A DNA stretch of 64,000 nucleotides, from positions 558,001 to 622,000 of the forward strand of contig NZ_AP022600.1 of NCBI RefSeq assembly GCF_010725885.1. The letters run 5' to 3'. The position numbers were made by a program, and so were the translations under genes. This document shows, in pieces, positions 40,819-55,679 of the stretch; the stretch's first letter is position 1; each line of letters begins with the position of its first letter. This DNA is from Mycolicibacterium tokaiense. Its GTDB lineage: Bacteria > Actinomycetota > Actinomycetes > Mycobacteriales > Mycobacteriaceae. The notes beneath the pieces are model-generated. The model was given only the letters and a program-made list of their open reading frames with translations, did not search any database and was not told where the DNA came from.

Positions 40819-42195
40819 ATGGCCGGACGCAGAGTCCTGACGGCGCTGGCCACGGTGGCGGCGCTGACGCTCGCGCCGGTGGTGACCCCGCCGACGGCCA
40901 CCGCGGTCAGCGCGCTGGTGATGGGTGGCACCGACCAGCCCGACCCGGAAAAGCTCGGTGACTACCTGCCGGACGTGCACACGACCTTTCTGGACCCCTT
41001 CACCGCGTGCTCGGCGACTGACTGCGACCTCACGGGAGTGGTGTATCCGGCGGAATTCTGGCCCTTCCCGCAATGGGGCGGGCTGGAAGGGCAGAAGTAT
41101 GACCGCTCGGTGGCCGAGGGTGTGGTCAACCTCGAGGCCGCGCTGCGGCGGCAGTATCTGGAGGACCCGGATGAACCCGTGGTGCTGTTCGGCGCGTCGC
41201 AGAGCGCCACGGTGGTCACCTTCGTCAAGCGCAAGCTCGCCACGCATCCGGAGGGCATGCCGGCCCAGGTCCAGATCGTGCTGATCGGCAACCCCAACCG
41301 ACCCAACGGCGGATTGCTGGCCCGGTTCGCGCCTCTCACCATCCCGGTTCTGGAGTTCACCGGTAGTGGCGGCACCCCCACCGACGCGGGTATGCCGACC
41401 ACCGACATCGCTTTCCAGTACGACATCGCCGCAGACTTCCCCAAGTACCCGCTGAACCTGTTCGCGCTGCTGAACTCGATCATCGGCATCGATATCCACG
41501 GCGACTACCTGCTGAACCGCAACGGATACACCGAAGCCGAGTTACAGGCCGCCATGCAGGATCCCGCCAACCAGCAGATCCACGGCGACACCACCTACAT
41601 CACCATCCCGACCAAGCGCCTGCCGCTGCTCGCGCCGCTGCGTCAGCTCGGCGTCGACCACAACGCCACCGCCGTCACCGAACCGCTTGCCGCGCTGATG
41701 GAACCGACGTTGCGCGTGCTGGTCGAGCTCGGCTACGACCGTGGTGCGGGATATGGTCGCGCAAGCGGATTCGGCCTGCTGCCCCGTGTCGATCCGGTGC
41801 GCCTGACCACCGATCTGGTCACCGCCGTGAGCACGGGCCTCCGCGATGCCCGCGCCGCCGCGGTGGCGCCGTCGTCACGCCAGGGCGAGCCGCCGCGCGA
41901 ACCTGAACCAAAGGTCCAGCAGATGTCCTCTGCTGCAGATCATTCCGATGTCGAACCCGCACCGGTACCCGAGCGGGACCGTCGGCGGCAGTCCGAGCCG
42001 GAGGTTGCAGACGACGCCGACGAGACCGACGACACCACCGACGAGGGCACCACCCAGGACGAGGACGATTCCGAGGACGCCTCCGTCGACGAGCCCGATC
42101 CATCGGACGCGTCCGACGCGGAGGACGAGGCCGACGCGGAGGACGAGGCCGACGAGCCCGCTTCCGATGCTCCCGCGGAGCCGGCCGCCGCCTGA
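40819..42195 (+). CDS. Exported PE-PPE-domain serine hydrolase with acidic tail
   Basis: A 458-residue protein with a signal peptide (VLTALATVAALTLAPVVTPPTATA) and a PE-PPE-type alpha/beta-hydrolase domain whose nucleophile Ser127 lies in FGASQSATVV. There is no PE or PPE domain at the N-terminus. From about residue 365 the chain becomes disordered, and the last ~85 residues are almost only Asp, Glu, Ser, Thr, Ala and Pro. Cutinase-like hydrolysis of esters or lipids is inferred from family members. GGGGAGGTG precedes the ATG. Confidence 0.85.
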   Translation: MAGRRVLTALATVAALTLAPVVTPPTATAVSALVMGGTDQPDPEKLGDYLPDVHTTFLDPFTACSATDCDLTGVVYPAEFWPFPQWGGLEGQKYDRSVAEGVVNLEAALRRQYLEDPDEPVVLFGASQSATVVTFVKRKLATHPEGMPAQVQIVLIGNPNRPNGGLLARFAPLTIPVLEFTGSGGTPTDAGMPTTDIAFQYDIAADFPKYPLNLFALLNSIIGIDIHGDYLLNRNGYTEAELQAAMQDPANQQIHGDTTYITIPTKRLPLLAPLRQLGVDHNATAVTEPLAALMEPTLRVLVELGYDRGAGYGRASGFGLLPRVDPVRLTTDLVTAVSTGLRDARAAAVAPSSRQGEPPREPEPKVQQMSSAADHSDVEPAPVPERDRRRQSEPEVADDADETDDTTDEGTTQDEDDSEDASVDEPDPSDASDAEDEADAEDEADEPASDAPAEPAAA

Positions 42196-42213: not shown

Positions 42214-42240
42214 CTCCAGGCAATCTCCACACTGCCTCCA
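42214..42240. promoter_or_regulatory. CTCCA direct-repeat array A (11-bp spacing)
   Basis: CTCCA occurs at 42214, 42225 and 42236, each exactly 11 bases apart, 80 bases upstream of the small exported protein at 42320. The helical-turn spacing is typical of OmpR/PhoB-family response-regulator sites. A four-repeat version with closely similar flanks lies at 55388-55425. Confidence 0.55.
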
Positions 42241-42319
42241 AGCACCGGACTGCCCGGGCCGACACCATGGTGATCATCAACCGTGAGCCGACAACGGCTC
42301 CTACACAGAGGATTTCACC

Positions 42320-42616
42320 ATGAAAAAGATGGTCTCGGTTTCCGGCCTGGCCCTCGTCGCCGCGTCCGCGGCACTGCTGGCAGCCCCCCTTGCACATGCG
42401 GCCGATTCGGCCTCGACCACCATCGGGCTGCTCGAGGCTCAAGGCTTCGACGTCAAGGTCGACCGGGTGGGCAGCGCCCCCCTGGACCAGTGCGAGGTGA
42501 CGTCGGTGCGCAACCCGCGGGTGCAGCGCTCGCTCATCGACTTCGACGACGATGACAACAACGTCTTCGACGTCGAGCGACGCACCATCACGGTGTCCCT
42601 GAACTGCGCGCGATGA
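42320..42616 (+). CDS. Small exported protein, paralogue B
   Basis: A 98-residue secreted protein with a clear signal peptide (MVSVSGLALVAASAALLAAP-LAHAA). Its mature part shares LLEAQGF-V-VDRVGSAPL-QC and the ending ITVSLNC with the protein at 38618-38914. Two conserved cysteines suggest a disulfide. A short acidic loop (DFDDDDNN) is unique to this copy. Upstream is a CTCCA repeat array (42214-42240), and GAGGATTTCACC before the ATG acts as ribosome site. Function unknown. Confidence 0.78.
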   Translation: MKKMVSVSGLALVAASAALLAAPLAHAADSASTTIGLLEAQGFDVKVDRVGSAPLDQCEVTSVRNPRVQRSLIDFDDDDNNVFDVERRTITVSLNCAR

Positions 42617-55387: not shown

Positions 55388-55425
55388 CTCCACCAGCTCT
55401 CCGCCCAATCTCCACACAACCTCCA
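55388..55425. promoter_or_regulatory. CTCCA direct-repeat array B (11-bp spacing)
   Basis: CTCCA, CTCCG, CTCCA and CTCCA begin at 55388, 55399, 55410 and 55421, exactly 11 bases apart, and end 35 bases before the ATG at 55461. The core CAATCTCCACAC plus CCTCCAAGC is shared with array A at 42214-42240. Confidence 0.6.
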
Positions 55426-55460
55426 AGCCCAGACCCGGGCCGCCGACGACGCTTGGTCAC

Positions 55461-55679
55461 ATGAACGATGACACCGCCACCTTGCCCTTCGGCTACCGCG
55501 TACTCGGCCCGGTTTCCGCCCCCGTCGGCACCATCCTGATCACCCCGTCGACACCACGATCACGCAGGTGGAGTCAGCTGCTGCGCACGTGGGCAGTCCG
55601 CCGCCGGCACCCGGCGCCGCGTCGGCGGCCGGACTTCTTCGAGGCCTCCGCGATGGCCAGGGAGATGCACCGGCTCTGA
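55461..55679 (+). CDS. Small basic protein of unknown function
   Basis: A 72-residue reading frame (starting MNDDTATLPFGYRVLGPVSA) with a basic middle (TPRSRRWSQLLRTWAVRRRH) and a helical end. No family is recognised. Support comes from its position directly behind CTCCA array B and from ending just before the ClC gene on the other strand; no strong ribosome site is present, and it could be a chance frame. Confidence 0.45.
   Translation: MNDDTATLPFGYRVLGPVSAPVGTILITPSTPRSRRWSQLLRTWAVRRRHPAPRRRPDFFEASAMAREMHRL

Follow-up and report, generated by a model that had tools for sequence, protein, structure and literature searches.

OmpR/PhoB-type response regulators carry a Trans_reg_C winged helix (PF00486), bind direct repeats at 11-bp steps and place the last repeat at the -35 position of the promoter. 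One-component regulators of the CadC/ToxR type have an N-terminal OmpR-type winged helix and no receiver domain. The alpha/beta-hydrolase fold is found in D14 and KAI2, which are plant hormone receptors, and hydrolases also occur in lipase/cyclase and LuxR-type fusions such as LipJ. In regulators of the SARP (AfsR) type, an OmpR-type domain acts on 11-bp repeats and activates over a weak -35 element; the 3' repeat of SARP promoters lies 8 bp from the -10 element and the upstream repeat, at -40 to -30, overlaps the -35 element (PMC10936776).

Here we describe arrays of CTCCA units that, taking the explanation as a whole, are most probably the operators of a one-component OmpR-type winged-helix family, mostly hydrolase-fused. 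The candidate reader resembles response regulators in its winged helix, its 11-bp direct repeats and the position of the last repeat, but it has neither a receiver domain nor a cognate kinase, carries a hydrolase in most cases and is associated with a CTCCA box. It resembles CadC/ToxR-type regulators in domain order, but it lacks a periplasmic sensor domain and, in the predicted model, ends in a soluble hydrolase fold. In contrast to SARPs it has no BTAD domain, and its repeats lie one step further upstream. Although it shares the alpha/beta-hydrolase fold with D14 and KAI2, its top Foldseek matches are enzymes rather than receptors and its hydrolase is fused to a DNA-binding domain; its hydrolase region resembles LipJ, far under the cut-offs, whereas an OmpR-type winged helix forms its output domain. 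The new element is the hydrolase fold in the receiver's place, as OmpR-type regulation from repeat boxes is itself already known. In one open-access library, we found no paper describing the CTCCA box or the winged-helix/hydrolase fusion.

CTCCA arrays in the window and in the genus

The window, that is, the whole stretch of 64,000 nucleotides that was analysed, contains two arrays. An earlier note on this DNA had placed CTCCA/CTCCG units at 55388, 55399, 55410 and 55421 and at 42214, 42225 and 42236, and all of these starts were confirmed; the core AATCTCCACACNNCCTCCAAGC, shared by both arrays, is present exactly twice. The features of the two loci are as follows.

55388..55398, + strand: additional fourth unit CTCCACCAGCT, upstream of the other three, read from sequence
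55399..55428, + strand: box of three units, CTCCGCCCAATCTCCACACAACCTCCAAGC, differing from the refined pattern at 1 position
55448..55453, + strand: predicted -10 element GACGCT, with A-11 at 55449 and T-7 at 55453
55461..55679, + strand: 72-aa protein of unknown function with conserved C-terminus RRRPDFFEASAMAREMHRL, mRNA predicted to be leaderless
42214..42243, + strand: three-unit box CTCCAGGCAATCTCCACACTGCCTCCAAGC, 0 mismatches to the refined pattern
42263..42268, + strand: predicted -10 element CACCAT, with A-11 at 42264 and T-7 at 42268
42320..42616, + strand: 98-aa exported protein of unknown function, from a family of 25 behind boxes

The gene at window positions 41900-42195, which ends just 5' of the 42214 box, encodes a long acidic low-complexity tail (DEADAEDEADEPASD...).

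Arrays of this kind exceed chance expectation, as the pattern CTCCR(N6CTCCR)2 has three matches in the window and none in 100 dinucleotide shuffles. Across the window's own genome (G000, one contig of 6,328,149 bp, 6.33 Mb), a scan for at least three CTCCR units at 11-bp steps gave 10 matches at 8 places, and the reversed pattern gave none. From the flanks of the loose-pattern matches a refined 30-bp box pattern, CTCCANNNNATCTCCACNNNNNCTCCAAGC, was derived, which at up to 3 mismatches has 7 matches in this genome against 0 for the reversed control; the seventh, at genome place 486516, has 3 mismatches and no clear target. A different CTCCA-like array at one of the 8 places, TCGCTCCAAC repeated at 11 bp (G000:C1:1681260-1681286, - strand), was counted as another element because its flank differs and a SARP gene (L040:3134-5059) lies behind it. 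That gene encodes a SARP with BTAD and ATPase domains in the Pfam scan and is unrelated to the candidate reader. An array of the TCGCTCCAAC type also precedes a similar SARP gene in G019 (L018), and it is likely to be an autoregulatory SARP box.

The box is conserved in relatives, a point on which the earlier note had made its regulon depend: in the genus, 55 of the 198 genomes searched contain the refined pattern, with 183 matches between them, compared with 7 matches to the reversed control. The 11-bp phasing is retained as well. Of 30 glycosyltransferase loci, chosen by protein similarity independently of the box, 29 show three CTCCA units at steps of 11,11 with no more than 1 mismatch over all three, and every other spacing tried occurs in 0-3 loci. 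At 58 loci chosen by similarity to the regulator the phasing is less clean (53 at 11,11, 53 at 11,9 and 50 at 11,12, with 3 mismatches allowed), which is explained by the degenerate boxes at these loci.

The window and 120 fetched regions yielded 113 distinct sites, of which 112 were aligned, an overlapping second match in L234 being left out. Their consensus is GATCTCCAnnC GATCTCCACac aaCCTCCAAGC. The first GAT is conserved though absent from the search pattern, as are GAT and AT upstream of the units generally, and the flanks outside the box and the -10 element are not conserved. A fourth repeat as a general feature was rejected, since CTCCA at -11 (at most 1 mismatch) occurs in 5 of the 112 sites.

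Promoter anatomy and target genes

The -10 element, although used in no search, stands at a fixed distance from the box. An A at box +50/51 with a T four bases on is present in 111 of the 112 sites, compared with a maximum of 21 and a mean of 6.6 at control offsets; a free motif search found the element in 99/112 and 97/112, as against 111/112 for the direct count of the A..T pair. In -10 elements of the sigma-70/sigma-A class, conservation is highest at A-11 and T-7. We predict from the aligned sequences that the pair belongs to a sigma-A-like -10 element at the distance from the box that is typical of class-II activators. The three units lie near -61, -50 and -39, with the last at the -35 position; it ends 19-20 bp before a poor -10 hexamer, the spacer holds no repeat, and no separate -35 element is evident in the 112 aligned sites. 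Position -12 of the -10 element is C or G instead of T and, given this and the ECF sigma genes' own role, another sigma factor may act at the box promoters. In 64 of 111 sites the start codon follows T-7 by 7-10 nt, which implies a leaderless or nearly leaderless mRNA at those sites; a leaderless start at every target was rejected on the same count.

The two arrays of the window precede small genes, as had been noted, and the products of these genes belong to families found repeatedly behind boxes. More generally, boxes precede coherent genes, a point that the earlier note had wished to see checked: the downstream proteins of the 113 sites cluster into five families: macrolide-type glycosyltransferases (33 proteins at 32 sites, one being counted twice), lipoproteins or secreted proteins (27), the small exported family of window gene 42320 (25), ECF sigma factors (10) and small proteins ending in AMAREMHRL, the family of window gene 55461 (7). 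The other 11 downstream products include three (L050, L228 and L281) that gene picking assigned to the wrong frame; from their sequences we read these as members of the small exported family, outside the count of 25. Short products of the L208/L210 type are partly an artefact of crude gene picking. In the window's own genome, the box targets are the following.

42320 in the window: exported protein
55461 in the window: 72-aa protein
L038: ECF sigma factor (Pfam Sigma70_r2 and r4)
L041: 153-aa secreted-looking protein
L042: lipoprotein-like protein directly after the regulator gene
L043: glycosyltransferase

The glycosyltransferase scores 130.7 bits against the NCBIfam macrolide glycosyltransferase model TIGR01426, whose cut-off is 260, and is thus related to MGT but not a member. 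The 72-aa product of 55461 has no Pfam or NCBIfam match. The 42320 product has 353 homologues at E<=0.001, and among the best 120 of these the named ones are mostly hypothetical mycobacterial proteins; its model (pLDDT 75) matches no PDB structure at E<=0.001, for which reason a PASTA or other known fold was dropped.

These observations leave next to no room for chance, or for a dispersed repeat without regulatory role. GC-rich genomes can carry such arrays, and outside the genus the loose pattern matches in 3 of 24 genomes of the same order, about as often as the reversed controls. However, reversed controls in the window's own genome are 0 for both the loose and the refined pattern, the unsearched -10 element recurs at its fixed distance, coherent gene families follow the boxes, and conservation stops beyond the box and the -10 element. 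The same promoter geometry makes it improbable that a SARP (BTAD) regulator reads the box, or that the box is the promoter of the regulon's ECF sigma factors. SARPs likewise bind repeats spaced by 11 bp, but their repeats lie 8 bp from the -10 element (PMC10936776), against 19-20 bp here; the CTCCA-like array that precedes SARP genes in two genomes, one of them G000 (L006, L018), has the different flank TCGCTCCAAC and falls outside the refined pattern. Sigma genes are indeed among the box targets, yet three repeats at helical steps with an A-11/T-7 -10 element are unlike an ECF promoter.

The candidate reader and its distribution

Our favoured reader of the boxes, a one-component winged-helix protein, is encoded beside one of them: the box at G000:C1:5484065-5484094 starts directly after the stop of a 423-aa regulator gene (G000:C1:5484101-5485369). 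Its N-terminal DNA-binding domain matches Pfam Trans_reg_C over the cut-off (residues 53-125, 1.1e-16), and Abhydrolase_1 also matches (3.3e-25); the Pfam scan found no receiver family at E<=0.1 and no BTAD domain. PhoB and MtrA are among the NCBIfam models nearest to the DNA-binding domain, with scores far under their cut-offs, and phmmer against structures matches it to RstA (2naz) and CadC (5ju7); none of the 60 sequence matches listed is a solved chain spanning both halves of the regulator. The 58 loci fetched by regulator similarity alone, mostly Mycolicibacterium and Mycobacterium records and including M. vaccae, M. austroafricanum, M. litorale and M. iranicum, carry a box immediately 3' of this gene in 53 cases (with up to 5 mismatches) and anywhere in the fetched locus (up to 5.3 kb) in 57. 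Autoregulation from the regulator's own upstream promoter was rejected, as there is no box on its own strand there (best 7-11 mismatches in the 58 loci).

Among the 198 genomes of the genus, the regulator is full-length in 44 and the DNA-binding domain stands alone in 6 more (61-68% identical). Boxes occur in all 50 genomes with the domain (178 matches) and in 5 of the 148 without it, with one match each, which is near the reversed-control rate; Fisher's test gives p 1.4e-41 without correction for relatedness. Presence was called from matches listed at E<=1e-20, a threshold that a weaker DNA-binding domain could escape. A quick tree was built from mtrA and part of mtrB for 90 genomes, of which 50 have the domain and 40 lack it (G157 forms a very long branch), and along this tree the domain switches between present and absent 17 times. 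Supported branches provide 13 independent pairs, in which the box follows the domain in 10-12 cases and never does the opposite (sign test p 0.0005-0.002); the co-variation holds up on the tree and is more than shared ancestry. Co-varying target genes, for example the ECF sigma factors, may be additional players.

The best 30 glycosyltransferase loci show the same association, since 29 are in regulator-positive genomes, each with a box of at most 2 mismatches, and the thirtieth, in regulator-negative G028 (67% identical protein), has no box (best 7 mismatches). Among the five regulator-negative genomes with a match, G119 has a worn box before the remnant of an exported-protein gene whose start is lost, and G195 has one before a fragment 79% identical to a sigma-factor target; to judge from these sequences, both look like relics before broken target genes. 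The surroundings of the box in regulator-negative G157 have no match to the target families. A glycosyltransferase relative (57%) in regulator-negative G168 (C322:5354-6364) has an in-frame stop, which fits decay after loss of the regulator.

The earlier note had proposed that the arrays mark a regulon of an OmpR/PhoB-type response regulator. The regulon and the winged-helix repeat pattern hold, and the two-component part is not supported. Direct repeats at a helical turn fit any OmpR-type winged helix, and PhoB and MtrA are among the nearest models of the candidate domain, if far under cut-offs. However, boxes are confined to 55 of the 198 genomes, whereas MtrA, taken as an example and control and the sole named regulator counted genome by genome, is present in 196, and the boxes track the candidate reader's family in 50 of 50 genomes and, in 53 of the 58 regulator loci, adjoin the gene for it. 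We therefore see little chance that a phosphorylated response regulator (MprA, PhoP, RegX3, MtrA or other) reads the boxes, and the two-component assignment is most likely wrong.

Box and DNA-binding domain also stay together where the hydrolase is missing. In the six domain-only genomes, a short gene with a short tail in place of the hydrolase occupies the fused gene's locus beside the same two neighbours, an ECF sigma gene adjoins in several, and the boxes are kept; thus, the box follows the DNA-binding domain. Four domain-only loci (L188, L190, L191 and L193) have, behind the DNA-binding gene, an ECF sigma gene and a gene that we liken to an anti-sigma factor and that has no Pfam match; in L188 and L191 a lipoprotein gene with a box (4 mismatches) follows. 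The window's own genome has two paralogues of the regulator, one fused and 55% identical, at 1632710 (L186:3055-4404), and one domain-only, at 101958 (L185:2938-3318) and divergent from an ECF sigma gene; the three could share or divide the boxes among themselves.

Outside the genus, 3 of 200 genomes of the order have a full-length homologue (55-61%), and all three carry a CTCCA array at 11-bp steps in the intergenic region that separates the regulator from a divergent gene.

L406: array with 2 mismatches to the pattern
L407: array CTCCT, CTCCA, CTCCA
L405: array CTGGA, CTCCA, CTCCA

By sequence, we read one of the divergent genes as SAM methyltransferase-like and another as acetyltransferase-like, and the third matches FAD-oxidoreductase families, mostly under cut-offs. 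A MAG labelled Agromyces (L173) encodes a 61% full-length homologue and has no box in 5.2 kb.

The hydrolase half and the proposed circuit

The regulator model (pLDDT 84.5, pTM 0.67) places the winged helix at residues 30-128 and the alpha/beta-hydrolase at residues 146-421. Foldseek supports the latter fold (5e-18), with esterases, haloperoxidases and an enol-lactonase as top matches and D14 and KAI2 chains also present (E about 3e-15 to 4e-15, 18-20% identity). All 38 proteins aligned share the triad S248 (in GVSQG), D373 and H401 without variation. Among NCBIfam models, the region is similar to macrolide esterases and to the lipase/adenylate cyclase LipJ, with scores far under the cut-offs. 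From these sequence and model features we infer that the hydrolase domain is a ligand-binding, possibly ligand-cleaving sensor; an ester, lactone or polyketide-like ligand would be a guess from sequence, its macrolide-like character being suggested by the resemblance of the glycosyltransferase and the hydrolase to macrolide glycosyltransferases and esterases, both under cut-offs.

In the circuit that we propose, the DNA-binding domain would bind the CTCCA box (motif GATCTCCAnnCGATCTCCACacaaCCTCCAAGC), with protomers sitting head to tail on the three 11-bp direct repeats, and the bound protein, its last unit in place of a -35 element, would recruit RNA polymerase to the poor -10 element, so that the candidate reader is a putative activator of the box promoters. 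The hydrolase would control the DNA-binding half by binding, and perhaps cleaving, a small molecule (an ester, a lactone or a polyketide-like compound), and the DNA-binding half would switch the genes for the macrolide-family glycosyltransferase, the envelope and exported proteins, the small conserved protein and the ECF sigma factors. It is unlikely, if less so than a response-regulator or SARP reader, that the same family is instead a repressor or a dual regulator whose hydrolase ligand relieves repression: the direction of control cannot be read from sequence, and the six domain-only genomes keep their boxes without the supposed sensor, but the box covers the -35 position and the DNA upstream of it, and the -10 element and the start stay free of it in 111 of the 112 sites, which, together with the lack of a separate -35 element, suits an activator.

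Returning to the activator circuit, we tentatively consider, with more doubt than conviction, that the regulator is a bacterial counterpart of the plant hydrolase-receptors, in which a bound and slowly turned-over signal switches the OmpR half and turns the programme on. The intact triad would then act on an ester, lactone or macrolide-like signal, and the programme would consist of small-molecule modification, envelope proteins and ECF sigma factors; the modification genes would be the glycosyltransferase and, outside the genus, the methyltransferase-like, FAD-oxidoreductase and acetyltransferase-like genes. Some lineages would have lost the sensor and placed the DNA-binding half beside sigma genes. 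A soluble enzyme-fold sensor would thus sit on an OmpR-type DNA-binding domain, where receiver domains usually occur. Should the hydrolase prove to be the sensor, the regulator could serve to identify a natural molecule sensed by these bacteria and would offer a simple system for studying the change from enzyme to receptor. An unexplained motif has thereby become a testable circuit in environmental mycobacteria, with a candidate reader, a box, a promoter geometry and targets.

Directly upstream of the regulator lies a 109-aa gene (L042:6389-6715, - strand; CRWCGREV...RRRQYCRQSCRQRAYEQRA) with no Pfam match, and this gene stands beside the regulator in 10 of 10 loci checked (L042, L046, L047, L051 and six domain-only genomes).
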